This document shows positions 4,452 to 63,448 of a stretch of DNA of 64,000 nt, one piece after another. The translations under genes were made by a program, and so were the position numbers. Location: contig NZ_JAPJDC010000001.1 in NCBI RefSeq assembly GCF_026241855.1, forward strand, positions 1,178,001-1,242,000, given 5' to 3'. Every line of letters starts with the position of its first letter. The stretch's first letter is position 1. This DNA is from Curtobacterium flaccumfaciens pv. betae (GTDB lineage: Bacteria > Actinomycetota > Actinomycetes > Actinomycetales > Microbacteriaceae). The notes beneath the pieces were generated by a model. The model was not told where the DNA came from, did no database searches, and worked only from the letters and a program-made list of their open reading frames with translations.

Positions 4452-6128
4452 ATGCCCACACAGATCTCCGAACCGCAGCCGCTCGAAGCCGGCACCCTCC
4501 GCGTCGTCCCCATCGGGGGCCTCGGCGAGATCGGTCGCAACATGACCGTCTACGAGTACGAGGGCAAGCTGCTCATCGTCGACGCTGGCGTGCTGTTCCC
4601 CGAGGAGCACCAGCCCGGTGTCGACCTGATCCTGCCGGACTTCTCGCCGATCCGTGACCGCCTCGACGACGTCCTCGGTGTCGTGCTCACGCACGGCCAC
4701 GAAGACCACATCGGCGCCGTCCCGTACCTGCTCAAGCTCCGCGACGACATCCCGCTGATCGGCTCCACGCTGACCCTCGCGCTGGTCGAGGCGAAGCTCA
4801 AGGAACACCGGATCAAGCCGTACACGCTCGTCGTGGCCGAGGACCAGACCGAGCAGATCGGCCCGTTCCACCTCGAGTTCGTCGCCGTGAACCACTCCAT
4901 CCCGGACGCCCTCGCCGTCGCGATCACGACCCCCGCCGGTCGTGTGCTGCACACGGGTGACTTCAAGATGGACCAGCTCCCGCTGGACGACCGCATCACC
5001 GACCTCCGTGCGTTCGCCCGTCTGGGCGAGGCCGGCGTGGACCTGTTCCTGCCGGACTCCACGAACGCCGACGTGCCGGGCTTCACCGCTCCGGAGCGCG
5101 ACATCGGCCCGGTGCTCGAGAACATCATCATGCGCGCCCGCAAGAAGGTCGTCGTGGCGAGCTTCTCGTCGCACGTGCACCGCGTGCAGCAGGTCCTCGA
5201 CGCCGCCGCGGCCGCGAACCGCAAGGTCGCGTTCATGGGGCGCTCGATGATCCGCAACATGACGATCGCCGCCGACCTCGGGTACCTGCGGGTGCCGGAG
5301 AACGTGCTCATCGACACGAAGAAGGCGAAGAACGTCCCCGACGACCAGATCGTCTACATGTCGACCGGGTCGCAGGGTGAGCCGATGGCCGTCCTGGCCC
5401 GCATGGCGAACCTCGAGCACCAGATCGAGATCGGCGAGGGCGACACCGTCATCCTCGCGTCGTCGCTCATCCCGGGCAACGAGAACGCCGTGTACCGCGT
5501 CATCGACGGGCTGACCAAGCTCGGTGCGAAGGTCGTGCACAAGGGCAACGCGAAGGTGCACGTCTCCGGACACGCCTCCGCTGGCGAGCTGCTCTACTGC
5601 TACAACATCCTGCGGCCGCGCAACGTGCTCCCCGTCCACGGCGAGCACCGCCACCTGTACGCGAACGCCGACCTGGCGATCCAGACGGGTGTCCCGCCGC
5701 GCAACGTGATCCTCGGGCAGGACGGCATCGTCGTCGACCTGAAGGACGGCGTCGCGACGGTCGCCGGTCAGCTCGACATCGGCTACGTCTACGTCGACGG
5801 CTCCACCGTCGGCGAGATCACCGACGCCGACCTGAAGGACCGCCGCGTCCTGGCGGAAGAGGGCTTCATCTCGATCTTCTGCGCGGTGGACTTCACCACC
5901 GGGCAGTGCGTGATCGGCCCGGAGATCCAGTCGCGTGGCTTCGCCGAGGACGACTCGGTGTTCGACGACGTCCGCCCGCAGATCGCCAAGGCGATCTCCG
6001 AGGCTGCCGCGAACGGCACGCGCGACTCGCACGCCTTCGCGCAGGTCGTCCGTCGCACGGTCGGTCGCTGGGTGAACACGAAGCACCGTCGTCGTCCGAT
6101 GATCGTCCCGGTGGTCATCGAGGCGTAG
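4452..6128 (+). CDS. rnj: Ribonuclease J
   Basis: Metallo-beta-lactamase-fold RNase with 5'-3' exo- and endonuclease activity for RNA maturation and decay. The 558-residue length is standard. Visible are G-G-L-G-E-I-G-R-N, the Zn ligands H-G-H-E-D-H (His81, His83, Asp85, His86), the H-T-G-D-F-K motif, the beta-CASP S-G-H-A-S-A-G-E-L and P-V-H-G-E-H-R-H-L blocks, and the C-terminal oligomerisation region. It lies between dapA and ftsK, as in many Actinobacteria. A strong hairpin terminator follows at 6147-6186. Confidence 0.97.
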   Translation: MPTQISEPQPLEAGTLRVVPIGGLGEIGRNMTVYEYEGKLLIVDAGVLFPEEHQPGVDLILPDFSPIRDRLDDVLGVVLTHGHEDHIGAVPYLLKLRDDIPLIGSTLTLALVEAKLKEHRIKPYTLVVAEDQTEQIGPFHLEFVAVNHSIPDALAVAITTPAGRVLHTGDFKMDQLPLDDRITDLRAFARLGEAGVDLFLPDSTNADVPGFTAPERDIGPVLENIIMRARKKVVVASFSSHVHRVQQVLDAAAAANRKVAFMGRSMIRNMTIAADLGYLRVPENVLIDTKKAKNVPDDQIVYMSTGSQGEPMAVLARMANLEHQIEIGEGDTVILASSLIPGNENAVYRVIDGLTKLGAKVVHKGNAKVHVSGHASAGELLYCYNILRPRNVLPVHGEHRHLYANADLAIQTGVPPRNVILGQDGIVVDLKDGVATVAGQLDIGYVYVDGSTVGEITDADLKDRRVLAEEGFISIFCAVDFTTGQCVIGPEIQSRGFAEDDSVFDDVRPQIAKAISEAAANGTRDSHAFAQVVRRTVGRWVNTKHRRRPMIVPVVIEA

Positions 6129-6146
6129 CGTCCGTCCCCGCTCTGG

Positions 6147-6186
6147 AGGCCCGTCCAGCGTCCGTCACGGACGCTGCGGCGGGCCT
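6147..6186 (+). terminator. Rho-independent-type hairpin after rnj
   Basis: The arm AGGCCCG (6147-6153) pairs with CGGGCCT (6180-6186), and inside it AGCGTCCGT pairs with the following CGGACGCT around a 2-base loop. It lies just past the rnj stop and before the ftsK promoter, and contains the TGGAGGCCCG core of the intergenic repeat family. Confidence 0.65.
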
Positions 6187-6211
6187 TCCTGCGTTTGTCC
6201 TGAGCGGGCGT

Positions 6212-6217
6212 TAGGGT
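6212..6217 (+). promoter_or_regulatory. Leaderless -10 box (TAGGGT) for ftsK
   Basis: TAGGGT, 7-base spacer, then ATG 6225. No ribosome-binding site lies in the spacer. Confidence 0.6.
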
Positions 6218-6224
6218 TCTGCCC

Positions 6225-9158
6225 ATGGCCGGAGGCACCAAGTCGACCACGCGCTCGCGCGCGTCCACGTCGTCCCGTGGCAACGGGACGCGCGGTTCGT
6301 CGCGCACCCAGGCCACGACGAAGAAGCTGCCGCAGGCTGCGCCCACGCCGGTGTTCCGCGAGCAGAACCCGCTCGTGACCTTCTGGCTCGCGATGGCGCA
6401 CGGCGTCGGCGCGATGTTCCGGCTGCTCGGCAAGGAGACCCTCGAGAAGGACCAGCGGCGCGACGGGTTCCCGTTCCTGCTGTTCCTGCTGGCCATCGCC
6501 GGCGGGGTCGTCGAGTGGCTCAACCCGACGAACAGCGTCTCCGTCGCACTCGACGCGTACACGTTCGGTGGGCTGTTCGGCCGCCTGGCGTTCGCCCTGC
6601 CCGTCATCATGATCGTGTTCGCCGGGTGGCTGTTCCGGCACCCGGCCTCGGTGCACGACAACACCCGGATCGGCATCGGCCTGGGCATTCTGATCGTGTC
6701 GATCGCCTCGCTCTGCCACGTCTTCGGTGGCCGACCGAGCGCGGCCGACGGCATGCCCGCGCTGGCCGCCGCCGGTGGGGTGCTGGGCTGGGTGGTCATC
6801 GGCTGGCTCGTCACGATCGCGACCGCCTGGGTGGCCGTCCCCGTGGCGATCGTGCTGCTCGTGCTGTCGCTCTTCATCATCACCAAGACGCCGCCGAACA
6901 AGCTCGGGCGACGCCTGCACGAGCTCTACGCCTACCTGTTCGGCGCACCGGCCCCCGCAGCCGAGCCCGAGGCCGACGCCGCCGCTGCGGCGGAGCCCGC
7001 CGCCCGCGCCCGCACGTCGAAGCGCGGCAAGAAGGGCGACGCCGACTTCCAGCTGTTCGACGACCTCGGGTTCGGTGACGAGCAGGCCGCTGCCGACGCC
7101 GAAGCCGGTGGCGACAACGTGCCGTGGTGGCGCCGGAACAAGTCCGGGCGCGAAGAGGACCCGGCGTACGACAGCCCGGTGCTGCCGCCGGCCACCGGGG
7201 TCGCCCCGGCTGCCGCTGCCGTCGCACCAGCTGCGCCCGTCGTGCCCGCTGCCCCCGCCGTGAGCCCGAACGCCGGTGCCGCCGCCGGGCTCGTCGACCT
7301 CACGCCGGCCGAGCCCGCGTCGGTCAACCTCAACGACTCCGTCGAGCAGGACCTGCAGGACGCCGAGCAGGCGCTCCGCGCGTTCGGCACCGACGTCCCC
7401 GCGCGGCCGGAGCCGACGGCCGACATCCGTCCCGCGGTGCCCGAGGTGCTGTCCGAGCCCGAGATCGTCGACGAGCCGGAGGACATCGACGCCGCCGCCG
7501 AGCTGAGTGCGGCCGCCGCCGGTTCCGACGACGATCCGTCGAAGCCCTACCGACTGCCCGCCGCCACGACGCTGAGTTCCGGGACCCCCTCGGTCGCGCG
7601 GAGCCAGGCGAACGACGACATCGTCGCCGCCATCACCGGGGTGCTCACCGAGTTCAAGGTCGACGCGAAGGTCACCGGGTTCTCCCGCGGGCCGACGGTG
7701 ACCCGGTACGAGATCGAGCTCGGCCCCGGCGTCAAGGTCGAGCGCGTCACGGCCCTGTCGAAGAACCTGTCGTACGCGGTCGCCTCGAACGAGGTCCGCA
7801 TCCTGTCGCCGATCCCGGGCAAGAGTGCCATCGGTGTCGAGATCCCGAACACCGACCGCGAGATCGTCTCGCTCGGTGACGTGCTGCGCTCGAACGCCGC
7901 CCGCAAGTCGAAGCACCCGATGACGATCGGCGTCGGCAAGGACGTCGAGGGCGGCTTCGTCGTCGCGAACCTGGCGAAGATGCCGCACCTGCTCGTCGCC
8001 GGCTCCACCGGTTCCGGCAAGTCGGTGTTCATCAACTCGATGATCACGTCGCTGCTGATGCGCGCGAAGCCGTCCGAGGTCCGCATGGTCCTGGTCGACC
8101 CGAAGCGCGTCGAACTCTCCATCTACGCCGGCGTCCCGCACCTCATCACACCCATCATCACGAACCCGAAGAAGGCGGCCGAAGCGCTGCAGTGGGTCGT
8201 GAAGGAGATGGACATGCGGTACGACGACCTGGCGTCGTTCGGGTTCCGCCACGTCGACGACTTCAACAAGGCGATCGAGAACAACGAGATCGTCCTGCCG
8301 GCGGGTAGCGAGCGGAAGCTCAAGCCGTACCCGTACCTGCTCGTCGTCGTCGACGAGCTCGCCGACCTCATGCTCGTGGCGCCGCGTGACGTCGAGGAGT
8401 CGATCGTCCGCATCACCCAGCTCGCCCGTGCCGCCGGCATCCACCTGGTGCTCGCGACGCAGCGCCCCTCGGTCGACGTCATCACCGGCCTGATCAAGGC
8501 GAACGTGCCGTCGCGCATCGCCTTCGCGGTGACGAGCGTCACGGACTCCCGCGTCATCCTCGACCAGCCCGGCGCCGACAAGCTCATCGGTCAGGGCGAC
8601 GCGCTCTTCCTGCCGATGGGCTCGTCGAAGTCGCTCCGCGTGCAGGGTGCCTGGGTGCAGGAGGGCGAGGTCGCCGAGGTCGTCCAGCACGTCACGCGGC
8701 AGGCGCAGCCCGAGTACCGCCAGGACGTCCAGGCCGTGGTCGAGCGCAAGGAGATCGACGCCGACATCGGCGACGACCTCGAACTGCTGCTCGCGGCCGT
8801 CGAGCAGGTCGTGTCGACCCAGTTCGGTTCGACGTCGATGCTGCAGCGGAAGCTCCGCGTCGGCTTCGCCAAGGCCGGTCGTCTGATGGACCTGATGGAG
8901 TCGCGCGACATCGTCGGGCCGTCCGAGGGTTCGAAGGCCCGCGACGTCCTGGTGACCGCCGACCAGCTGCCCGCGGTGCTCGCGAAGCTCCGCGGCGAGG
9001 AGCCGCCCGCCGCGGCCGCTCCGGCAGCGCCGGCCCCGACGCCGTCCGGCGACGGTGACCGCTACGGAGCAGACCCCGTGGGGGACATGACCCGCGGGTA
9101 CGATGAAGTCCACGACGAGCCCGATGAGGACGCGTGGGGACTGACGGGCAGGGAGTGA
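6225..9158 (+). CDS. ftsK: DNA translocase FtsK/SpoIIIE family
   Basis: Septal ATP-driven DNA pump that moves chromosome termini and supports dimer resolution. The 977-residue protein has a basic N-terminal tail, four hydrophobic segments between about residues 85 and 225, an Ala/Pro/Glu-rich linker (about 240-440), then the motor domain: Walker A G-S-T-G-S-G-K-S near residue 592, Walker B in [23 protein letters not shown] and the C-terminal winged-helix gamma domain ([12 protein letters not shown]). ATG 6225 is supported by the leaderless box. pgsA starts immediately after the stop. Confidence 0.96.
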
Positions 9159-39973: not shown

Positions 39974-40007
39974 AAGCCCCGATAGGACCGAGGTTCTATC
40001 GGGGCTT
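39974..40007 (+). terminator. Terminator of tRNA-Pro
   Basis: AAGCCCCGATAG (39,974-39,985) pairs perfectly with CTATCGGGGCTT (39,996-40,007) around a 10-base loop. It could also stop transcription of the minus-strand genes that follow. Confidence 0.8.
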
Positions 40008-40062
40008 CGTCGGTCGTCTCAGAATCGAACCCTCGTAGTCCCCTCCTGATGAGTCGGGCAAC

Positions 40063-40839
40063 TCATGCAGGGTGGAGCAGATGACGTTCTTCGACGTAGC
40101 GCTCGCCGGGTCTGAGGATCGAAAAAAGATCGTCTTCTTGATGTGCTTTGTCTTCTGCCACGAGGGCGTGCAGCGTGCGCCGTAAGTTGGCGCGCATTCC
40201 TGGCCTGACCCATGAGCGAAGCTTGCTGAAGGAAGCGCCTTCCGTGCCCGCGCGGTAGAGCAGAACCAAGCAGTACTCCCCTGCGCGTAGATCGCGCAGA
40301 ACCCGAGGGAATCCGTTGACCTCCTGAACGGCCGGGACCTCCCTGGTCACGAGTCGGTCGATGGTGCGCTGTGCTTCGTCCGGGCCGACGGAGTGATACA
40401 CGCGCATGAACTCCGCGAGCACCCAGCTCATCAAGCCGACGATGAGAGTGGCGTCCATCAGGTTCGGGTCAATGTCGGCTCCGAGGTGCGCCACATCACG
40501 GTCGTTTCTGATGGTGTAGATGATCTGGAGCGCCCGGGGGATGTGCTTGCGCACGCTTGCATCACCTGAGCCGTTGAGAAGTGTCAGTAAGAGCTGGTCA
40601 ACCTTCGGCAGGGTCTTCCCTACCGGCGTGTACTTGCCACCAGGCTGCGTGGCCCACTGCAGTATGCGAAAGGCCGCTTCTGCGAATCGGGCACCCTCCA
40701 CGGCGTTGGGACGGTGGTCGCCGAGGTAAAAACGCCTCTTTGACTCGAAGAACCCGTTCATCAGTTCATCCACGAGCTCGGTTGGCACACCGCTTCTGAT
40801 GAATCCGTCGGTGACGGCTGAGAGGTCGGCGGCACTCAC
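40063..40839 (-). CDS. Uncharacterised protein with possible HEPN-like core (island gene 2)
   Basis: A 258-residue protein of lower G+C than its surroundings. The central helical region contains I-R-N-D-R-D-V-A-H-L-G, then D-A-T-L-I-V-G-L-M-S-W-V-L-A-E-F-M-R-V-Y-H; R-N-x-R-x3-H is the kind of motif seen in HEPN RNases and Abi_C-type abortive-infection proteins. The last 90 residues look like a winged helix ending in L-R-P-G-E-R-Y-V-E-E. GTG 40839 overlaps the partner's stop as GTGA, so the partner is translated first. A defence or toxin role is inference. Confidence 0.8.
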   Translation of the reverse strand: MSAADLSAVTDGFIRSGVPTELVDELMNGFFESKRRFYLGDHRPNAVEGARFAEAAFRILQWATQPGGKYTPVGKTLPKVDQLLLTLLNGSGDASVRKHIPRALQIIYTIRNDRDVAHLGADIDPNLMDATLIVGLMSWVLAEFMRVYHSVGPDEAQRTIDRLVTREVPAVQEVNGFPRVLRDLRAGEYCLVLLYRAGTEGASFSKLRSWVRPGMRANLRRTLHALVAEDKAHQEDDLFSILRPGERYVEERHLLHPA

Positions 40840-41360
40840 GCGGCAGAGACTCCGAGGGTGACCAGGTAGTCCAACCCGGCCTTGGCGACCTTGAATCGGC
40901 TGCCAACCTTGAAGGCGCGCTTCGCGGCGAGGTTGTTCTTCATCGACTGAGATGCGTTCGACAGCTTGACCCCTTGCTCGATCAGGAGCTTGTGCGCCTC
41001 GTTGGTGGAGAAGGTGCCGTCGGGGGTGGTCTTCGCGTGGTAGTAGCCGGCGAGCAAGATCTGGTCAGTCCCCGACTTGCTAGAGAGCGAGTGAAGTACT
41101 TGACCGAAAGGCTCGTCGACGGGGGAGGAAGCTCCACCTGCCGTCGTCCCGAAGTTTCCCGTCAAGTTGCCTGAACTGGCGGCGGCGGTGGCAGCGGGCA
41201 CAGTGTCCACGACCGTGGGACCCTGCTCGATCAGGCGCGAAAGCAGCGCGGCGATAGACTCAGCGTACTGTGACACGAAGTCTTGGTGGCCGTCGACTTC
41301 CAGTTCTCCGGTTGCAAGGCTGATGCGGATGCGTCCCTGCGGTTCTGAGTTCGCGGTCAT
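40836..41360 (-). CDS. Uncharacterised protein with C-terminal winged helix (island gene 1)
   Basis: A 174-residue protein, first gene of the island operon. The N-terminal 45 residues read I-R-I-S-L-A-T-G-E-L-E-V-D-G-H-Q-D-F-V, a small beta domain I associate with uncharacterised defence-type proteins. A Ser/Ala/Gly-rich linker (about 55-85) follows, then a winged-helix-like C-terminus (L-S-N-A-S-Q-S-M-K-N-N-L to Y-L-V-T-L). ATG 41360 is preceded by the strong SD GGAGGAGA and a full sigma-70-like promoter. Function unknown; it could be a DNA-binding or antitoxin-like partner of the next gene. Confidence 0.8.
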   Translation of the reverse strand: MTANSEPQGRIRISLATGELEVDGHQDFVSQYAESIAALLSRLIEQGPTVVDTVPAATAAASSGNLTGNFGTTAGGASSPVDEPFGQVLHSLSSKSGTDQILLAGYYHAKTTPDGTFSTNEAHKLLIEQGVKLSNASQSMKNNLAAKRAFKVGSRFKVAKAGLDYLVTLGVSAA

Positions 41361-41409
41361 GGTCTCTCCTCCGGGTGAAGTTGGTAGCTGGGTCTACGCC
41401 AGCATCATC

Positions 41410-41438
41410 AGCATGATTCGCACTGACGAGCTTGTCAA
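41410..41438 (-). promoter_or_regulatory. Promoter of the two-gene island operon
   Basis: On the minus strand a perfect -35 TTGACA (41,438-41,433), 17-base spacer, and CATGCT (41,415-41,410). The transcript would have a leader of about 45 bases with a strong SD, unlike the leaderless core genes. Confidence 0.7.
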
Positions 41439-41439
41439 G

Positions 41440-41623
41440 ACCGAGTGTGAGCCAGTTTGCTCGCGTTTCTCCGCTTCTGTTGGGCTTTATCCGCATGCGG
41501 CGTAGTCATCAGTGAGGCGTGATGTTCAGCGCAAGTATTTGTATGCAGTAGGCGCTACTTCGCGTAAAAGGCTTCTGATCTGGGGTTTATCAGGTTGCAG
41601 TAGCAAGTGATCGCGGTCTATAC
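41440..41623. other. AT-richer non-coding stretch at the island edge
   Basis: No gene is visible. The stretch is unusually AT-rich for this window (for example TATTTGTATGCAGTAGG and TATACCTAGTACAAATC). I looked for a copy of the tRNA-Pro 3' end as an attachment site and found none. Confidence 0.5.
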
Positions 41624-42234
41624 CTAGTACAAATCACCGATGGATGACCGAGGTACGACGACGGACTGTAGGGCTACCTGCTCAGTGCTGCTTGCGGCCC
41701 GCGCAGGCGCAAGCGCCGTGGGCAAGAAGGCTTCCCAGCGGCCCTCGACGTCGACCTGAGCGCTCGGGGGCGCGAGCCCGGTCCTTCCCACCACGTGCAT
41801 CGAGGCGGTGTGATCGGGATGGATGAGAGCCCGGATGTGTCGGACGTCGACCGAACGCAACCACATCACGACGGTTGATGTTGCCTCTACGGCGAGCCCT
41901 CGACCCTGTTCTTCTGACGTGACCAGCCAGGCGAGGTCTGCCTCGAGGCCGTCCTCCTTGCGTCCGAGGGTGGCTTGCCCGAATCCGATCGCGGGTCCGC
42001 CGCAGGCAGGGCGGACGATTCAGTTCGGCCAACCCGCGTGCCGTCCTCAGACTGGCCCTGGGATTGGCGGCGGTACCGTGCGCCCAGTTCGTCCAGGGTT
42101 GGTGGCTCGCCGCCAGTGAACCGGTAGAGCTCTGTTGGAGCCAGGGCGGTCAGCATCTCGGCTGCGTGGTCAACGGCAAGCGGTTCCAGGGCGAGACGAT
42201 CCGAATCCAGGGGATCAGCCTGTGGCCACGACAT
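41624..42234 (-). pseudogene. GNAT acetyltransferase pseudogene
   Basis: The N-terminal part reads L-D-S-D-R-L-A-L-E-P-L-A-V-D-H-A-A-E-M in one minus frame. The rest of a GNAT fold is in another frame: I-V-R-P-A-C-G-G-P-A-I-G-F-G-Q-A-T-L, then L-V-T-S-E-E-Q-G-R-G-L-A-V-E-A-T (acetyl-CoA pyrophosphate loop) and I-H-P-D-H-T-A-S. Between them there is a frameshift near 42,032-42,040 and a TGA at 42,020-42,022 where the family normally has Trp (W-P-N-W-I-V-R). Two lesions make a sequencing error unlikely. The in-frame GTG at 42,264 is an alternative start. Confidence 0.8.
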
Positions 42235-42315
42235 GACCCGAGCCTCGCAGATCGCGAACGGCACGGGGTCTCCCGCAAAACATCCACAGTGACCACGGCC
42301 TGACTCCGCACCTGC

Positions 42316-42621
42316 TCACGAGAGCGGCTGTCGCCGGATCCACACGGTCACCCCGAGGTGACCGATGCCGGTCGCAGCGAGACAGACCATTCCCCACCCG
42401 ATGACGCTGTGCCCGGTGGCGAGGAAGAAGATCCCGAAGGCGAGGACGAGGGCGACCAGGAGCGCACCGCAGAGGAGTAGCAGCAGGCTGGTCACGGGGC
42501 TGGCGTTCAAGGTGAGCTGCGCGTCACGCACCCAGGCCGGGGTCCGCACACGATTCACGAGGATCGCGACCGTACCCACCAGGACTGCGATGCTCGCTGC
42601 GAGCAGACCTGCTTCAGCCAT
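42316..42621 (-). CDS. Small hypothetical membrane protein
   Basis: A 101-residue protein with three likely membrane helices (about 4-22, 44-69, 75-92) and a basic C-terminus. Family not recognised. ATG 42621 is selected by TACCAT with a 6-base spacer on the minus strand; the longer frame to 42,648 lies upstream of that box. Divergent from the next gene. Confidence 0.65.
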   Translation of the reverse strand: MAEAGLLAASIAVLVGTVAILVNRVRTPAWVRDAQLTLNASPVTSLLLLLCGALLVALVLAFGIFFLATGHSVIGWGMVCLAATGIGHLGVTVWIRRQPLS

Positions 42622-42627
42622 GCCGAG

Positions 42628-42633
42628 ATGGTA
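42628..42633 (-). promoter_or_regulatory. Leaderless -10 box (TACCAT)
   Basis: TACCAT on the minus strand, 6-base spacer CTCGGC, then ATG 42621. Confidence 0.55.
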
Positions 42634-42703
42634 CCGGCGAAGGTGCATGCTTCGGCTGGTCTGCGGCCTCGAACGCCCCGGCTGACGCTGACAAGATGAG
42701 TTC

Positions 42704-43087
42704 GTGCAGATCGAAGAAGTGGACGAGCGGCACTACGGCAGCGAAGGCGAGCGCGACACGTTCGTCGTGCACTTCTTCCATGCTCCGAGGGGCGAGACGG
42801 TTGCGCCCGACTGGGACGCCACGAGTTGGTCGGTCAGTGTGATTCGCGTCACCGACGCGACGTACCGTGCGGCGTTTGCACAGGCCCGGCGGATCGCCGC
42901 TGGCGAGGTGTTGCCGACACTGTTCTCGGTGTCCCTCGAGACCGCGGGGCCGAACGGCCCGGGAATCCTGCGACTGTTCGGGACCGACCTCAACGTGGAG
43001 GGACTCGAGCTCGAGCCCGATTCGCATGCGGCGAAACGGGAGATGTTCGCCGAGTTCTTCAGCCGCGACCGTACTGCGCACGCGTGA
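42704..43087 (+). CDS. Hypothetical protein (LFxVSLETxGPxGPGILRLFG family)
   Basis: An acidic 127-residue soluble protein of no family I know. The N-terminal half is charged; the most distinctive part is L-F-S-V-S-L-E-T-A-G-P-N-G-P-G-I-L-R-L-F-G, then E-P-D-S-H-A-A-K-R-E-M-F-A-E-F-F-S-R-D-R-T. A damaged paralogue is present at 56,205-56,424. GTG 42704 follows CAAGAT with a 6-base spacer, one base off the leaderless pattern. The 50-bp palindrome follows at 43,111. Confidence 0.75.
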   Translation: MQIEEVDERHYGSEGERDTFVVHFFHAPRGETVAPDWDATSWSVSVIRVTDATYRAAFAQARRIAAGEVLPTLFSVSLETAGPNGPGILRLFGTDLNVEGLELEPDSHAAKREMFAEFFSRDRTAHA

Positions 43088-43110
43088 TCGGGGATCTGGA
43101 GCGCAACCGC

Positions 43111-43160
43111 TGACGGACTGGAGGCCCGGTGCCAGCTGGCACCGTGCCTCCAGTCCGTCA
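43111..43160. repeat. 50-bp near-perfect palindrome (intergenic repeat family, best copy)
   Basis: Positions 43,111-43,160 pair end to end with a single C/T mismatch among 25 pairs and no loop, centred on GGTGCCAGCTGGCACC. The right end contains the stop codon of the ABC ATPase gene (TGA at 43,158-43,160, minus strand). Related copies lie near 47,561, 51,763 and 63,400. Confidence 0.9.
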
Positions 43161-43820
43161 CGTGCCGCGCGCGATGAGCTGCTCGTGTTGTAGCTGCAGT
43201 CGACGTCCACATCGCTGTGCAACGCGCTCACTGTGGGTGACGATCACGAACTTGGTTCCCGCTTGCTGCAGCCGATCGAAGAGGGCGAGCACGTCGTCTT
43301 CGGTCGTCTCGTCCAGTGCGCCGGTGGGCTCGTCGGCGAGGACGACGGCAGGGCGCTTCGCGATGGCTCGAGCGATCACGACGCGCTGCGCTTCTCCTCC
43401 TGACAGTCGTCGCGGGCGCTTGCCAGCGAGGTGGCTGATGCCGACCGCCTCGAGAGCCTCATGTGCTCGGTCGGCCGAGTCAGCGCGAGCGGGAACGCCG
43501 AGCCGGACATTGTCGAGCACGCTGCGGTCGCCGAGGAGGCTGTGGTCCTGGGTGACGATGCCGATGTGTCGGAGCCGATGCGCCGCCATCCTGCGTGGGG
43601 TGCACTCGAGCACGTGCCCGTCGTGCTCGTAGGTCCCGCCGAAGTCGGTGTCGAGGCCGGCGAGGATGCGGAGCAGCGTGCTCTTGCCCGACCCGCTGCG
43701 CCCGGTGATGGCTACTGAGCGATCGTCTTCGCGAAGGTCGAAGTCGAGTCGGTCGAACAGTGCTCGGGTCGATCCGTCGGGCTCGGTGATGGTCTTGGAG
43801 ACGTCGCGCAGCACGATCAT
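43158..43820 (-). CDS. ABC transporter ATP-binding protein (MacB/LolD type)
   Basis: Cytoplasmic ATPase, 220 residues, last gene of a three-gene minus-strand operon. Walker A G-R-S-G-S-G-K-S-T (40-48), the Q-loop in I-V-T-Q-D-H-S-L-L-G-D, signature L-S-G-G-E-A-Q-R (139-146), Walker B A-V-V-L-A-D-E-P (158-165) and H-loop V-T-H-S-E-R are complete. ATG 43820 overlaps the permease stop by 4 bases. Sequence and partners resemble ABC proteins encoded beside lactococcin 972-type bacteriocins, which is an inference from memory. Confidence 0.93.
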   Translation of the reverse strand: MIVLRDVSKTITEPDGSTRALFDRLDFDLREDDRSVAITGRSGSGKSTLLRILAGLDTDFGGTYEHDGHVLECTPRRMAAHRLRHIGIVTQDHSLLGDRSVLDNVRLGVPARADSADRAHEALEAVGISHLAGKRPRRLSGGEAQRVVIARAIAKRPAVVLADEPTGALDETTEDDVLALFDRLQQAGTKFVIVTHSERVAQRCGRRLQLQHEQLIARGT

Positions 43821-45109
43821 CGTGGGGTACCTCTTCGGCGTTGGGTGGTCAGTTCGATGCGGACGGCTCGTCGACCGAGTGCGCCGTCTGCCACACACCA
43901 GAGGAGCAGGGCGGTGCCGGCGCCGAGTCGTGCCATCGCACTGTCGTTGGGGAGCAGCGCGCTGGACGTGAGGAACAGCCCGAGCGCGGCGGTGTACTCG
44001 GTCAGGCGGCTTGCGCGGAACAGTCGGTTCGTCGCGTCCGGGCTCCTCCCGAGGAGATGGTGCACCCGCGCCATTGGCGCACGACGGTGATGCAGGAGCC
44101 GGTGGAGGAAGGCCGTGATGATGCCCACGCCCGCGGTGAGGATGATGAGCAGCGCAGTGACGAGCACCAGGTTGTCCTGGATGAGCTGGCGGACGAGGGA
44201 GAGCTGCACGAGGTAGGTCGGTACTCCGAGCAACGTGTACGACCGGAAGCTGGTGTCGTCTCCGATCGCGTCGAGACGCGCGACGACGTCCCCGAAATCG
44301 AGGCTGTGATCGACGGCGAGGTCGGCGTTGAGCACCTGGAACACCAGGCGTCCGAACAGCTCGGGATCCACCCGGTCGAGCGCTGCTCGGTCGAGTCCGG
44401 CGAGTGTCGGCGGGTAGGGCACGATGACGGTGTCGTCGAGGTAGTGGTTGGGCTCACCGCGGAAGTACATGGCACTGTCCGGCTCGAGGAAACCGACGAC
44501 CTCGAGCTCCTGCTCCTGCAGGATGACCGCTCCGGTGAATCGCGCTCCAACCTCGTACACGCCGCGGTACTCGTTGCCGAGCAGCACCGGGATCCGGCCG
44601 GATCCCCAGTCGACAGCGCTCCACTCGATCGGCTTGCCGTCCTGCACGGAGAGCCCCGCGAACTCGTACGCGGTCTCGTTGAGCTGGATTGACTTGATGT
44701 CCTGGACGCTCCGTCCGGACTCGTCCTGGTACTTCCCGTTGAGCGTGTACTCGGTCCCGTAGCCGACGTCGAAACGGTCGTCGCCGCGGAAGTCCTGGAC
44801 GGTCACGGGCTGGTCGTACGAGGAGATGAAGTCGAATCCGGGCTCGTCATCGACGCGGTCGACGAACGAGGCGACGTCGTCGAGCGCGTGCTGGTCTCGC
44901 CGGATCGCTTCGAAAGCGTCCGGGCCGAGATCGTCGACCACGGTGTAGAGGTCGACGTCGGCATCAGCGGACAGGCCCTGGGCCACGGCCTGCGAGGTGG
45001 ACTGGGTGAACGACGCCACGTTGTACCAGCAGAGTGCGAGCAGCACGAGCAGGACGATCTTGGCGACGATGATCGTCCAGTTGGACCGGAGGTCGTTCAG
45101 CAGTTCCAT
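43817..45109 (-). CDS. FtsX/MacB-type ABC permease, large half
   Basis: A 430-residue membrane protein: one N-terminal helix (about 11-30), a large extracytoplasmic domain (about 35-300), then three helices near the C-terminus (L-V-L-V-T-A-L-L-I-I-L-T-A-G-V-G, then L-G-L-F-L-T-S-S-A-L-L and A-R-L-G-A-G-T-A-L-L-L-W). This 1+3 layout is the MacB/FtsX topology of mechanotransmission transporters, which do not pump substrate through the membrane directly. It overlaps the ATPase by 4 and the second permease by 13 bases. Confidence 0.88.
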   Translation of the reverse strand: MELLNDLRSNWTIIVAKIVLLVLLALCWYNVASFTQSTSQAVAQGLSADADVDLYTVVDDLGPDAFEAIRRDQHALDDVASFVDRVDDEPGFDFISSYDQPVTVQDFRGDDRFDVGYGTEYTLNGKYQDESGRSVQDIKSIQLNETAYEFAGLSVQDGKPIEWSAVDWGSGRIPVLLGNEYRGVYEVGARFTGAVILQEQELEVVGFLEPDSAMYFRGEPNHYLDDTVIVPYPPTLAGLDRAALDRVDPELFGRLVFQVLNADLAVDHSLDFGDVVARLDAIGDDTSFRSYTLLGVPTYLVQLSLVRQLIQDNLVLVTALLIILTAGVGIITAFLHRLLHHRRAPMARVHHLLGRSPDATNRLFRASRLTEYTAALGLFLTSSALLPNDSAMARLGAGTALLLWCVADGALGRRAVRIELTTQRRRGTPR

Positions 45110-46002
45110 CGTCGGGTTCCCTGCAAGAACGAAGCGACGGACACGGCAAGCACGACGGTTCCGACCGCGACGACTGCGGTGGTGACGTCGAGGTCGAGGA
45201 TGGTGGTCTGCCTCACGACTGCCGCGCCCGCGAGCGCTGTCGTACAGGCGGCGGTGCCGATCACAGCGACTCTGGCGGCCGCGCTGCGAAGGGAGTTCAG
45301 CGGTCGGATCCCGGTGGTGAAGCGGACGGCGGCAGCGCGGAGTTCCCATCGTCCAGCTTGCAGCCCGGCGACCACGGCGATGAGCACGACGACGAGGGAG
45401 CCGAGCGCGACCAGGATGGGCGACACGGCGTCGACGTTCGTCCTGCGGTTCGTGCCGTCGTCGATGATCTCGACGCTCCTGCCGGGGAACTGTGCGCGGT
45501 AGTGGTGGGCGCTGCTCGGGCCGTCGAGGAGCAGTCGTTGTGGTGATGCCGAGAACCGGGTCGGATCAGCGAGGACCACATCGTCGGACAGCAGGCTGTC
45601 GGCCCGGATGCCGAGTCGCCCCACCACGTTGTACGGCTTGCCTTCGACGGCGATGTCATCGCCGCGGAGGGCAACGTCAGCGCCGGCGAGGGCTTCGCCG
45701 GGGTGCCCGGTCAGTGCGTGGCCGTCGTGCAGTGGGACGTCTGTCCACTGTCCGGACAGGACCACGACGGAGCGGACGTCACCGTCCAGACCCACGAACA
45801 CCTTCGTCCCCGGTTCGAACGCGCTCCGAGCACGCATGAGTTCGTCGATCGTCGCGGTCACCCACGCGCTCTGGCCGGAGCGAAGATCGTTGCCCTCCGC
45901 GGCAACGACACGTCGGCGAGCGTCGAACACCCCGATCAAGACCGTCAACAGCATTGCCAGCAGGAGCAGGCCTGCGATTGCTGTGATCTGTTGCTTCGTC
46001 AC
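45097..46002 (-). CDS. FtsX/MacB-type ABC permease, small half
   Basis: A 301-residue membrane protein with the same 1+3 topology: N-terminal helix I-A-G-L-L-L-L-A-M-L-L-T-V-L, an extracytoplasmic domain (about 30-195), then three helices (L-V-V-V-L-I-A-V-V-A-G-L, I-G-T-A-A-C-T-T-A-L-A-G, V-A-V-G-T-V-V-L-A-V-S-V-A). It pairs naturally with the 430-residue protein as a heterodimeric permease. GTG 46002 has AGGAG 5 bases upstream. A strong hairpin directly precedes the SD. Confidence 0.82.
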   Translation of the reverse strand: MTKQQITAIAGLLLLAMLLTVLIGVFDARRRVVAAEGNDLRSGQSAWVTATIDELMRARSAFEPGTKVFVGLDGDVRSVVVLSGQWTDVPLHDGHALTGHPGEALAGADVALRGDDIAVEGKPYNVVGRLGIRADSLLSDDVVLADPTRFSASPQRLLLDGPSSAHHYRAQFPGRSVEIIDDGTNRRTNVDAVSPILVALGSLVVVLIAVVAGLQAGRWELRAAAVRFTTGIRPLNSLRSAAARVAVIGTAACTTALAGAAVVRQTTILDLDVTTAVVAVGTVVLAVSVASFLQGTRRWNC

Positions 46003-46019
46003 GTCTTCTCCTCACGGCA

Positions 46020-46054
46020 GCAGCGGGTGCGAGCCGTCGGCTCGCACCCGCTGC
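46020..46054 (-). terminator. Hairpin attenuator between the peptide gene and the ABC operon
   Basis: A 16-bp perfect stem (GCAGCGGGTGCGAGCC with its reverse complement, 46,020-46,035 and 46,039-46,054) with a 3-base loop, just upstream of the SD of the ABC operon. As in bacteriocin operons it could allow high peptide transcription with limited read-through. Confidence 0.65.
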
Positions 46055-46120
46055 GATGTGTCCCAGAGTCAGCGATGATCCTGCTGCCGCGCTCGAGCCG
46101 AGCACTGCTGTAGTCCTCGT

Positions 46121-46217
46121 GTACAGCCGTTAACATGTCAGACCGGGAGCTCGTTGTCGAGGAAGCGTGTCGTCAGCGGCGACCGAGCTGCGAGCGCAGG
46201 ACGGAGCGGTGTCCGTT
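46121..46217. repeat. 97-bp direct repeat, copy 1
   Basis: Matches copy 2 (46,471-46,567) at 90 of 97 positions. It contains the last 14 codons and stop of the peptide gene, and a promoter-like sequence pointing at the ABC operon. Confidence 0.95.
46132..46160 (-). promoter_or_regulatory. Promoter-like sequence in repeat copy 1 (ABC operon)
   Basis: On the minus strand TCGACA (46,160-46,155), 17-base spacer, CATGTT (46,137-46,132), overlapping a GTTAAC palindrome. It would give the ABC genes their own transcript in addition to read-through from the peptide gene. Confidence 0.5.
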
Positions 46218-46445
46218 GATCGTCTTCCGCTCCGATGCACCGCGGTGGTTCACCGCGAACACCGTCATCTCGGTCTCTGCACCATCGACGGTTCCGGTGC
46301 TTTCCGACCATCCGCCGACGACTCCCTGGCTCCCGGTCTCGCCCTGCGCATGCGCGGGGATCGCGCCGAGGAACACTGTCCCGCCCACGGCTACTGCGGC
46401 GAAGCCCGCAGCAACTCGCCGAGTCCGCTGACCGATCCTGTTCAT
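46173..46445 (-). CDS. Small secreted peptide precursor (bacteriocin-like candidate)
   Basis: A 90-residue precursor with a classic signal peptide: R-T-R-R basic start, hydrophobic core A-A-G-F-A-A-V-A-V-G-G-T-V-F-L-G-A and cleavage after A-H-A (residue 33). The predicted mature peptide has 57 residues, Gly/Ser-rich at first (G-V-V-G-G-W-S-E-S-T-G), basic at the end (N-G-H-R-S-V-L-R-S-Q-L-G-R-R), and no cysteine. ATG 46445 has AAGGGG upstream. It lies between two 97-bp repeats and upstream of a two-permease ABC transporter. A toxin or signal role is inference. Confidence 0.7.
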   Translation of the reverse strand: MNRIGQRTRRVAAGFAAVAVGGTVFLGAIPAHAQGETGSQGVVGGWSESTGTVDGAETEMTVFAVNHRGASERKTINGHRSVLRSQLGRR

Positions 46446-46470
46446 CAATTGCCCCTTCTCGAATACTGAC

Positions 46471-46567
46471 GTACAACCGTTAACATGTCAGACCGGGAGC
46501 TCCTTGTCGAGGAAGTGTGTCATCAGTAGCGACCGAGCTGCGAGCGCGGGACGGAGCGGTGTCCGTT
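46471..46567. repeat. 97-bp direct repeat, copy 2 (3' stub of a second peptide gene)
   Basis: On the minus strand it still encodes N-G-H-R-S-V-P-R-S-Q-L-G-R-Y followed by TGA, in the frame equivalent to the end of the peptide gene. It looks like the tail of a deleted paralogue. Confidence 0.9.
46482..46510 (-). promoter_or_regulatory. Promoter-like sequence in repeat copy 2 (peptide gene)
   Basis: TCGACA (46,510-46,505), 17-base spacer, CATGTT (46,487-46,482) on the minus strand, ending about 36 bases before the peptide ATG. Identical hexamers and spacing to copy 1. Confidence 0.55.
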
Positions 46568-46573
46568 TAGGAT
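46568..46573 (+). promoter_or_regulatory. Leaderless -10 box (TAGGAT) ahead of the XRE regulator
   Basis: TAGGAT, 6-base spacer, then ATG 46580, which opens an 11-codon frame rather than the regulator gene itself. It starts directly after repeat copy 2. Confidence 0.5.
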
Positions 46574-46579
46574 CGGCGC

Positions 46580-46615
46580 ATGGTCGGATCTCACTGCCGG
46601 CACGGGTCCCCTTGA
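46580..46615 (+). other. Possible 11-codon leader reading frame
   Basis: ATG 46580 begins M-V-G-S-H-C-R-H-G-S-P and stops with TGA at 46,613-46,615, overlapping the TTG start of the XRE gene as TTGA. It may couple or regulate translation of the regulator. A single-base frameshift joining the two frames is the alternative. Confidence 0.35.
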
Positions 46616-47451
46616 CGGCCAACGCCTCGCTGCTCGGCAGCTACCTCCGTGCGCGACGAGCGGCGCTCAGCCCGTCCGATGTCGGCCTTCCCGCGGACAA
46701 CCGACGCCGCGTCCAGGGCCTCCGCCGGACCGAGGTCGCGCAGCTCGCCGGCATCAGCACGGAGTACTACGTGCGGCTGGAGCAGGGCCGGGAGCACGTG
46801 CCCTCGGCCCAGGTGATCGCGGCCCTGGCACGCGCCCTGCGACTGGACGCCGACGGCGCGGCGTACCTCAGGAGCGTGGCGGAACCTGCACCGGCACCGG
46901 CTGCCACGGCGCGCGGCCGGCAGCCGAGCGGCGACGAACTCCGACGGCTCGTGCGCCGTTGGGACGGCACCCCGGTCTTCGTCGCCGATCGGAACCTCGA
47001 CATCGTCGCGTCGAACGCACTGTGCGAAGCGATCGGCGGCGGCGTCCTCAGCCGTGGGCAGAACCGGATCGAGTACGTGTTCTCCGAGGCCTGCCGCGCG
47101 AAGTACCCGGTCGAGGAATGGCGTGCACGGGCCGCGCAGATCGTCGCCGTCTTCCGGCTCAGCGCCGACCCCGGCGACGACCGGATGCGCGAGGTGCTCA
47201 GGGGGCTGATGACGCGCTCTGCCGAGTTCGCGGACCTCTGGGAACGGCACGACGTGGCGATCCTGACCAACGGCACGTTCGTCCAGGACGTGCCGCCGTT
47301 CGGGCGGCTCGACTTCGAGTGGGAGCTCCTCGTCGTCCCGGGGACGGACGGACTGACGATCACGCCACTGTTCCCCTCCTCGCCCGAGAGTGTTGCAGCG
47401 GTCGCGTTCCTCCAGGCGCAGACGCAGGTGACTCCTCCGTCGCCATCCTGA
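46612..47451 (+). CDS. XRE-family regulator with MmyB-like ligand-binding domain
   Basis: A 279-residue regulator: N-terminal HTH (L-R-R-T-E-V-A-Q-L-A-G-I-S-T-E-Y-Y-V-R-L-E-Q-G-R), then the PAS-like MmyB ligand-binding domain (P-V-F-V-A-D-R-N-L-D-I-V-A-S-N-A-L). Relatives often regulate an adjacent redox or small-molecule gene. The start is uncertain: TTG 46612 is the only in-frame start close to the conserved L-L-G-S-Y-L-R-A-R-R. Divergent from the peptide gene, so a role in its control is plausible. Confidence 0.85.
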   Translation: MTANASLLGSYLRARRAALSPSDVGLPADNRRRVQGLRRTEVAQLAGISTEYYVRLEQGREHVPSAQVIAALARALRLDADGAAYLRSVAEPAPAPAATARGRQPSGDELRRLVRRWDGTPVFVADRNLDIVASNALCEAIGGGVLSRGQNRIEYVFSEACRAKYPVEEWRARAAQIVAVFRLSADPGDDRMREVLRGLMTRSAEFADLWERHDVAILTNGTFVQDVPPFGRLDFEWELLVVPGTDGLTITPLFPSSPESVAAVAFLQAQTQVTPPSPS

Positions 47452-47560: not shown

Positions 47561-47650
47561 ACGGACGGACGGGAGGCCCGGTGCCAGCTGGCCACGTCCC
47601 TCCAGGCACGGCCGTCACCCCGCTGGCGCGGTGCGCCGGTACCGGCTGGT
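47561..47650. repeat. Long intergenic repeat, left flank of the GH31 gene
   Basis: A copy of the palindromic family (core GGCCCGGTGCCAGCTGG) followed by CGTCACCCCGCTG and GCGCCGGTACCGGCTGGT. The same compound structure in the same orientation recurs at 51,763-51,848 beyond the GH31 gene. Confidence 0.8.
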
Positions 47651-51762: not shown

Positions 51763-51848
51763 TGACGGACTGGAGGCCCGGTGCCAGCTGGCGCCGTGCC
51801 TCCAGTCGTCCGTCACCCCGCTGACGCGGGGCGCCGGTACCGGCTGGT
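51763..51848. repeat. Long intergenic repeat, right flank of the GH31 gene
   Basis: Palindromic family copy (51,763-51,815) followed by the same 38-base tail as on the left flank. The 329-base gap upstream of the GH31 start holds this repeat, the LacI-type operator and no gene. Confidence 0.85.
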
Positions 51849-63399: not shown

Positions 63400-63448
63400 T
63401 GACGGACTGGAGGCGCGGTGCCAGCCGGCACCGTGCCTCCCGTCCGTC
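63400..63448. repeat. Palindromic intergenic repeat, copy after the SMI1-like gene
   Basis: Same family as 43,111-43,160, with TGACGGACTGGAGGC, a GGTGCCAGCCGGCACC centre and a slightly degenerate right arm. The gap 63,355-63,593 holds this repeat and the corA start region, no other gene. Confidence 0.8.

Follow-up and report, generated by a model that had tools for sequence, protein, structure and literature searches.

We analysed a 64,000-nucleotide (nt) stretch of the genome of Curtobacterium flaccumfaciens pv. betae (contig NZ_JAPJDC010000001.1 of assembly GCF_026241855.1, positions 1,178,001 to 1,242,000), which we call the window. On its minus strand, a 90-residue open reading frame (ORF) with a Sec-type signal precedes the genes for two half-permeases of 301 and 430 residues (p301 and p430) and an ATPase of the ATP-binding cassette (ABC) type. 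We found that the unit precursor-p301-p430-ATPase is a real cassette across phyla (Actinomycetota, Bacilli and Clostridia). In the window, the precursor gene is broken and the three ABC genes (hereafter the trio) are intact. With a probability of about 0.64, we propose that the cassette encodes a Sec-exported bacteriocin together with a type VII (LolCDE/MacB-like) ABC transporter for self-immunity, and that the window strain is an immune non-producer.

A predicted secreted precursor and three ABC genes in one cassette

Among 66 Curtobacterium genomes, p430 was found in 11 and the precursor in nine, all nine within the 11 (both, 9; trio only, 2; precursor only, 0; neither, 55; Fisher p 1.5e-9). 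Every Curtobacterium precursor thus occurs with the trio (9/9). The secreted peptide with an associated ABC trio of an earlier prediction for this DNA (the original prediction) is supported. In eight of the 11 p430-bearing genomes, the gene before p301 encodes an intact Sec precursor of 145-148 residues. In the Microbacteriaceae (398 genomes sampled), the precursor search gave matches in 10 genomes, and all six credible precursors in other Microbacteriaceae have p301, p430 and the ATPase alongside in the same order. The same arrangement was found for all four strong matches in other families of the order (7 of 386 sampled genomes matched). In the phylum sample, one genome of 396 matched: the window genome itself. 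Two weak matches were dropped from the Microbacteriaceae (G103 and G274, E 2.6e-4 and 8.1e-4; no permease or ATPase match in their 3.2-3.3-kb loci) and two from the order (G934 and G1033, E about 1e-4; no permease within the 11 kb read). A partial p430 match with an adjoining ATPase (G152, E 8e-9) was also dropped; it may be a distant relative. No credible precursor without the trio was found in the genomes and plasmids searched. This distribution is a lower bound.

The cassette is also carried by plasmids. When a plasmid collection (72,556 records) was searched by tblastn, the window p430 matched five plasmids (two from Paenibacillus polymyxa, two from Sarcina and one from Priestia), and the precursor of locus L013 matched three of these five; the two queries, run separately, led to the same Firmicutes plasmids. 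With the L013 query the Priestia precursor went undetected; it was found by its position and then confirmed with the Paenibacillus query. The 11.3-kb Sarcina plasmid p6 has six listed genes: two are of replication type, and the other four form the cassette. Roughly half of the record has no gene listed, and its gene table may be incomplete. In total, 29 trio loci were read: 11 from Curtobacterium, nine from other Microbacteriaceae, four from elsewhere in the order and five from plasmids. The four order loci were found through the precursor and are therefore uninformative on trios without it.

Intact precursors in the relatives have 134-149 residues, with a mature part of about 110. When 15 intact precursors are aligned, 19 columns are invariant, and the motifs GGWSE, H-x-G-x-x-E, HYT-x-A, SGR-x-W/Y-G and TYYG-K/R are largely conserved. 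By inspection, these precursors have a Sec-type signal: a basic-hydrophobic N-terminal stretch with an AxA-type end. Cysteine does not occur after residue 30 in any of the 15, and the calculated isoelectric point (pI) of the approximate mature part is 9.5-10.7 in 14 of them. In the scans made, the family had no Pfam, NCBIfam or PDB match, in line with the option of a new peptide class that had been raised for the window ORF. Among the matches listed from the open-licence PMC literature, we found no paper describing the family. The AlphaFold models of the precursor and p430 were too poor to use (mean predicted local distance difference test, 36.7 and 34.4). A phage origin was rejected: a search of 50,697 phage records with the L013 precursor gave no match, and none of 12 pattern stretches in viral contigs was confirmed.

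It is in our estimate an even bet that these proteins form a class of Sec-exported, unmodified, cysteine-free bacteriocins of about 110 residues (GGWSE...HYTxA...SGRxWG...TYYG[KR]; Actinomycetota, Bacilli and Clostridia) with heterodimeric LolCE-type ABC immunity, in which loss of the toxin gives rise to immune cheaters. The secreted-protein profile combined with three adjacent ABC genes provides a searchable signature for what is likely a bacteriocin class.

We also observed a complete 5.6-kb plasmid of Terrisporobacter sp. COM, pTVTCOM3 (L095, 3102-4776), on which a 111-residue Sec-type ORF ending in VFYGK is followed by a relative of p430 (118.8 bits with the p430 profile). Neither an ATPase nor p301 is annotated there or was seen among the longer ORFs. 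This plasmid may carry a minimal variant of the system, which has a single p430-type permease and lacks an ATPase; its secreted ORF resembles the precursor weakly (5.2 bits) and is a lead only.

Broken and missing precursor genes beside a kept transporter

By reading of the ORFs, the predicted positions of the ATPase, the two permeases, the 90-residue ORF and the divergent regulator were confirmed (Table 1), and the 90-residue ORF has the predicted signal peptide, which is of the Sec type and ends in AHA. The 57-residue mature peptide of the original prediction is, however, a truncation product. Because the ORF is homologous to its relatives over residues 1-78 only and its last 12 codons stem from a direct repeat, this peptide is a stump. 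The two copies of the repeat (97 nt) are 93% identical, and the one farther upstream can be aligned with the native 5' region found in the relatives. In the whole-genome search, positions 1-118 of the 147 in the precursor profile were matched, through one TGA stop. The inserted copy is followed by a short mid-gene remnant and, after it, by the intercistronic hairpin; the gene lacks its 3' end, and the precursor with it the conserved C-terminal half. An intact precursor exists in the same species (G007, L013). We conclude that two changes broke the window precursor gene: the region upstream of it was duplicated locally, and its 3' half was lost. When only one genome is read, a disrupted gene can be mistaken for a "new peptide".

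With "intact" defined as a single open frame over most of the profile, 20 of the 29 trio loci have an intact precursor, four have a damaged one (the window; G377, L038; G958, L087; Sarcina p1, L046) and five have none (G055, L014; G047, L017; G069, L068; G084, L070; G213, L069). The ABC genes are damaged in three loci: p430 has a stop in L019, p301 lies in two frames in L038, and the L046 ATPase lacks, by our reading of the sequence, seven residues next to Walker B. Among the discordant loci, seven kept the ABC genes with the precursor missing or broken, as against one of the reverse kind (two-sided sign test, p 0.07; target-size null, p 5e-6; the loci are not independent, and the two Paenibacillus loci are nearly identical). 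In a tree of the trio from nine Curtobacterium loci, the precursor-less L017 pairs with the precursor-bearing L018 (bootstrap 100; other nodes, 24-93). Therefore, the precursor was lost from L017 separately from the window. L014 shows a clean loss of the precursor, unlike the lesion in the window. The ratios of nonsynonymous to synonymous substitution rates (dN/dS) for the three ABC genes were 0.10-0.33 in all six pairs compared, three without an intact precursor and three with one. Regular occurrence of the trio without the peptide gene had been named as evidence against the predicted system; this was found in part, with the precursor absent from five and damaged in four of the 29 loci. Because the loss is visible in the DNA at several of these loci, retained immunity fits the data better than a lack of any connection between the precursor and the trio.

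The region upstream of the precursor gene is also informative. The sequence TCTGACATGTTAAC (at most one mismatch) occurs twice in the 3.78-Mb genome, both times at the window operon: once in the native upstream region and once in the insert. A genome-wide promoter motif was therefore rejected as the identity of the duplicated block. Exact TGACAYGTTAAC lies upstream of five of the nine precursor genes checked, including that of the window (not in L012, L019, L020 and L021). It also lies directly upstream of p301 in both precursor-less Curtobacterium loci, L014 and L017. Counted from its start to the end of the start codon, the distance to p301 is 57-59 positions in these two loci, and the distance to the precursor genes is 48-58. 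In the window, 141 positions lie between the start of the inserted copy and the end of the p301 start codon. The block is a putative promoter; the promoter scan found no sigma-70 consensus. If this reading is true, strains can drop the toxin while moving its promoter to the immunity operon and so become immune cheaters.

In our proposed mechanism, the precursor of 134-149 residues would be exported by Sec and cleaved after the signal to an unmodified, cysteine-free protein of about 110 residues, strongly basic in most members, which probably acts at the surface of Gram-positive competitors. p301 and p430 would pair in the manner of LolCE on the shared ATPase, and the transporter would keep the producer safe by removing the protein from its target in the membrane or cell wall. 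In the window strain, the putative promoter copy now lies nearer to the transporter genes, which would make the strain an immune non-producer.

We prefer self-immunity to export as the role of the trio because the precursor has a Sec signal and because the trio is kept without a working precursor in seven loci. The independent loss in L017, the similar dN/dS values without the precursor, and the upstream block in front of p301 in L014 and L017 are further reasons. The genomic pattern of seven loci against one thus agrees with self-immunity by the ABC genes, one of the options of the original prediction. Alternatively, the trio could be dedicated to exporting or maturing the secreted protein, which would account for the strict neighbourhood and gene order of the cassette. 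Moreover, the lactococcin 972 ATPase family is named "putative bacteriocin export ABC transporter" in NCBIfam, and TIGR03608 is the best model for two Firmicutes ATPases, those of Sarcina and Paenibacillus (219.3 and 223.5 bits, below the cut-off of 254.85). Nevertheless, the Sec signals of the precursors and the seven loci make this alternative unlikely, and several members of the MacB superfamily are described as acting on envelope-bound substrates or protecting against envelope-active peptides (PMC5985334).

The transporter and related systems

The window ATPase matched PF00005 with 101.4 bits, and its best NCBIfam models were LolD (163.5 bits) and FtsE (159.3 bits), both below their equivalog cut-offs. 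At E<=1e-3, MacB_PCD was matched by one of ten p430 members (1e-8; four of ten at E<=10), and among ten p301 members one matched FtsX (1.3e-4) and one MacB_PCD (1.7e-4). The p301 and p430 of the window itself had no FtsX or MacB_PCD match in the Pfam scans. A PDB profile search with p430 gave nothing significant, the best sub-threshold entries being PsdB (0.034), YbbP (0.11) and LolF (0.45). One N-terminal hydropathy window (two in Priestia) and at least three C-terminal ones were seen in 15 of 20 permease sequences and fewer in the other five; the window p430 has one of each. Taken together, the trio likely belongs to the type VII (LolCDE/MacB/FtsEX) superfamily. It shares with these systems a separate LolD-like ATPase, and its half-permeases may have the same layout, in which a helix at the N-terminus is followed by an extracytoplasmic domain and further helices at the C-terminus. 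The four-helix units of the superfamily are described as forming homodimers, heterodimers as in LolCE, or fused pairs as in BceB (PMC5985334). Because the heterodimeric arrangement is known, two separate halves with one ATPase require no special "split". In contrast to those systems, the cassette is found in Gram-positive bacteria, usually has a secreted-protein partner and shows no adaptor gene; the similarity is at the level of the superfamily only. For an origin of the two halves by duplication, the comparison of the p301 and p430 profiles gave 17.5% probability over 40 columns.

The resemblance of the ATPase to LolD and FtsE, its two best models, would also suit a housekeeping role, in which the secreted protein is an envelope or adhesion protein whose release from the membrane is managed by the ABC transporter, as in LolCDE or FtsEX, without any antagonism. 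We regard this as distinctly unlikely in view of the patchy occurrence (11 of 66 Curtobacterium genomes for p430, and only the strain's own genome in the phylum sample for the precursor), the carriage on plasmids and the repeated loss of the precursor alone. Another view takes the secreted protein as a signal or self-ligand and the transporter as a BceAB-like sensor or transducer for envelope stress or development; BceAB-type MacB homologs do combine sensing with detoxification of cell-wall-active peptides (PMC5985334). No single regulator recurs, however, in the neighbourhoods looked at, which were not surveyed systematically, although Priestia has helix-turn-helix (HTH) genes on both sides of the cassette, and an MmyB-type gene lies at two Curtobacterium loci. 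A protein of about 110 residues with many invariant positions would also be large for a signal, and we judge this view quite improbable. Bacteriocin production with self-immunity remains our preferred explanation.

The original prediction considered the cassette a possible relative of lactococcin 972 systems with the membrane partner split in two, and it proposed profile searches with the peptide and the ATPase. At E<=10, neither PF09683 nor TIGR01653 matched the window ORF or any of 16 intact precursors (eight from Curtobacterium, eight from others), and the comparison of the precursor with the lactococcin 972 precursor profile gave a probability of 0.6%. A true lactococcin 972 system is present in the window genome at C1:374 kb (G000:C1:374023-374205; PF09683, 50.1 bits), and its locus, L050, served as the positive control (TIGR01653, 40.9 bits; cut-off, 32.1). 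TIGR01654 had no match in the window or in the window genome (G000), and the fused permease of the strain's own lactococcin 972 locus also misses this model. Each permease was compared by profile with a set of five fused permeases, of which three lie next to true lactococcin 972 genes and two have sub-cut-off TIGR01654 matches; the probabilities were 3.1% and 2.3%, which gives no support to the idea of a split partner. With TIGR03608, the window ATPase scored 147.9 bits, like the Sarcina and Paenibacillus ATPases below the cut-off; the strain's own lactococcin 972 ATPase is also below it (190.2). In the ATPase tree, read without the rows Lcn_L054 and oth_L012x, the lactococcin 972 ATPases stand apart from those of the cassette (group support 0.755). 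By these precursor, permease and ATPase tests, membership in the lactococcin 972 group was rejected.

There is nevertheless a likeness. The lactococcin 972 system (lcn972-orf2-orf3 of pBL1) sits, like the cassette of Sarcina p6, on a plasmid of 11 kb (PMC4055356). It also has a Sec precursor whose start is of the GGxW type and whose end contains YY, followed by membrane protein(s) and an ATPase, although the cassette has separate half-permeases of 301 and 430 residues instead of one fused protein (675 residues in the window genome). A very remote kinship is possible from the GGxW start and the YY-containing end. On our best reading, the cassette works like lactococcin 972 even though the tested features of membership failed. 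Bacteriocin-linked ABC immunity is also described for AS-48EFGH and Mr10EFGH (PMC10598978), and a review counts AS-48H among the MacB homologs (PMC5985334). Some of these transporters are orphans, present where there is no bacteriocin gene, and the ABC genes kept without the toxin parallel these orphan Mr10EFGH transporters (PMC10598978). In contrast to the cassette, those systems have circular or leaderless peptides and other gene content. The role of the two ABC-type genes in lactococcin 972 loci is called unverified in one paper (PMC11796350). Because intact, broken and missing toxin genes occur naturally next to one and the same transporter, this role could be tested in a parallel system by comparing natural strains.

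Several points speak against our explanation. Killing and immunity are read here from the genomic pattern. The excess of seven loci to one is not significant by the plain sign test, and the target-size p value rests on a simple null. Matches to type VII families are few (one of ten p430 members and one or two of ten p301 members). The Paenibacillus precursor is acidic (pI 5.3). L019 (G013) has an in-frame stop in p430 (6517-7809) beside an intact precursor, which should be costly if p430 is essential for immunity; this is a draft assembly and the stop could be an error. In L068-L070 (Microbacteriaceae), the trio stands without a precursor-like gene in the 10 kb read and without a trace of a past one; it may be orphan immunity or serve another substrate. 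Finally, at the pneumococcal streptococcin B locus, which is lactococcin 972-like, strains that retain the immunity genes but have no working peptide fail to activate the locus, and producers therefore inhibit them (PMC11796350). Retention of such genes does not have to mean that a strain is immune.

Other features of the window

The features of the operon and its surroundings are listed in Table 1. The ATPase and p430 genes overlap by 4 bases and the p430 and p301 genes by 13. Pfam and NCBIfam scans of the operon and regulator gave matches for the ATPase and the divergent MmyB-type regulator only. The 17-bp hairpin is the same or similar in L012, L013, L018 and L022, degenerate in L019 and absent from L016 and L020.

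Table 1 Features of the cassette region in the window, with the lactococcin 972 locus of the same genome
Feature	Position	Strand	Basis or remark
ABC ATPase of LolD/FtsE/MacB type, intact	43158..43820	-	ORF and PF00005 match
p430, half-permease with a predicted layout of one transmembrane (TM) helix, large extracytoplasmic domain and C-terminal TM helices; intact	43817..45109	-	
p301, half-permease with a predicted layout of one TM helix, extracytoplasmic domain and about three TM helices; intact	45097..46002	-	
Disrupted precursor gene: Sec signal, first part of mature protein, 12 foreign codons, stop	46173..46445	-	
97-nt inserted copy of the precursor's upstream region, across the truncated 3' end	46121..46217	-	second TCTGACATGTTAAC copy
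Native upstream (promoter-like) region, conserved in Curtobacterium relatives	46471..46567	-	other repeat copy
Short residual piece of the precursor gene (its middle part), following the stop codon	46063..46120	-	weak profile match, E 0.004
Perfect 17-bp intercistronic hairpin before p301	46020..46054	-	between peptide gene and p301
Inverted repeat with 25-bp arms at the operon end, likely terminator	43111..43160	-	dispersed element in window
XRE/MmyB-type regulator, neighbour only	46504..47451	+	Pfam MLTR_LBD 109.8 bits, HTH_31 44.4
Lactococcin 972 locus: precursor, fused 675-residue permease, ATPase	8012-8404, 5921-7948, 5286-6101		L050, window genome

The divergent HTH/MmyB ORF predicted beside the operon is real; it is not a regular neighbour of the cassette. 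No relative of it was found in the DNA of 26 of the 28 other trio loci (E<=1e-5). In L013 and L017, a 35%-identical relative lies upstream of the cassette, co-directional with it and not divergent. Such regulators are multi-copy in the window genome (10 matches, nine over the cut-off). The regulator was therefore rejected as a part of the cassette.

A dispersed hairpin element around GGAGGCCCGGTGCCAGCTGG has seven matches in the window versus 0.01 expected (hairpin sites 43120-43151, 47572-47591, 51772-51803 and 63409-63440). The operon and the XRE gene lie between two of these sites, and some relatives have similar copies next to the cassette. The element may serve as a terminator and recombination site. 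Downstream of the operon lie two ORFs without a family match (42316-42648 and 42704-43087), one or both of which recur behind the cassette in some Curtobacterium loci (L013; partly L012 and L014). The G+C content is 61-67% at 40001-46000 and mostly 68-74% elsewhere in the window; the low value is consistent with acquired DNA.

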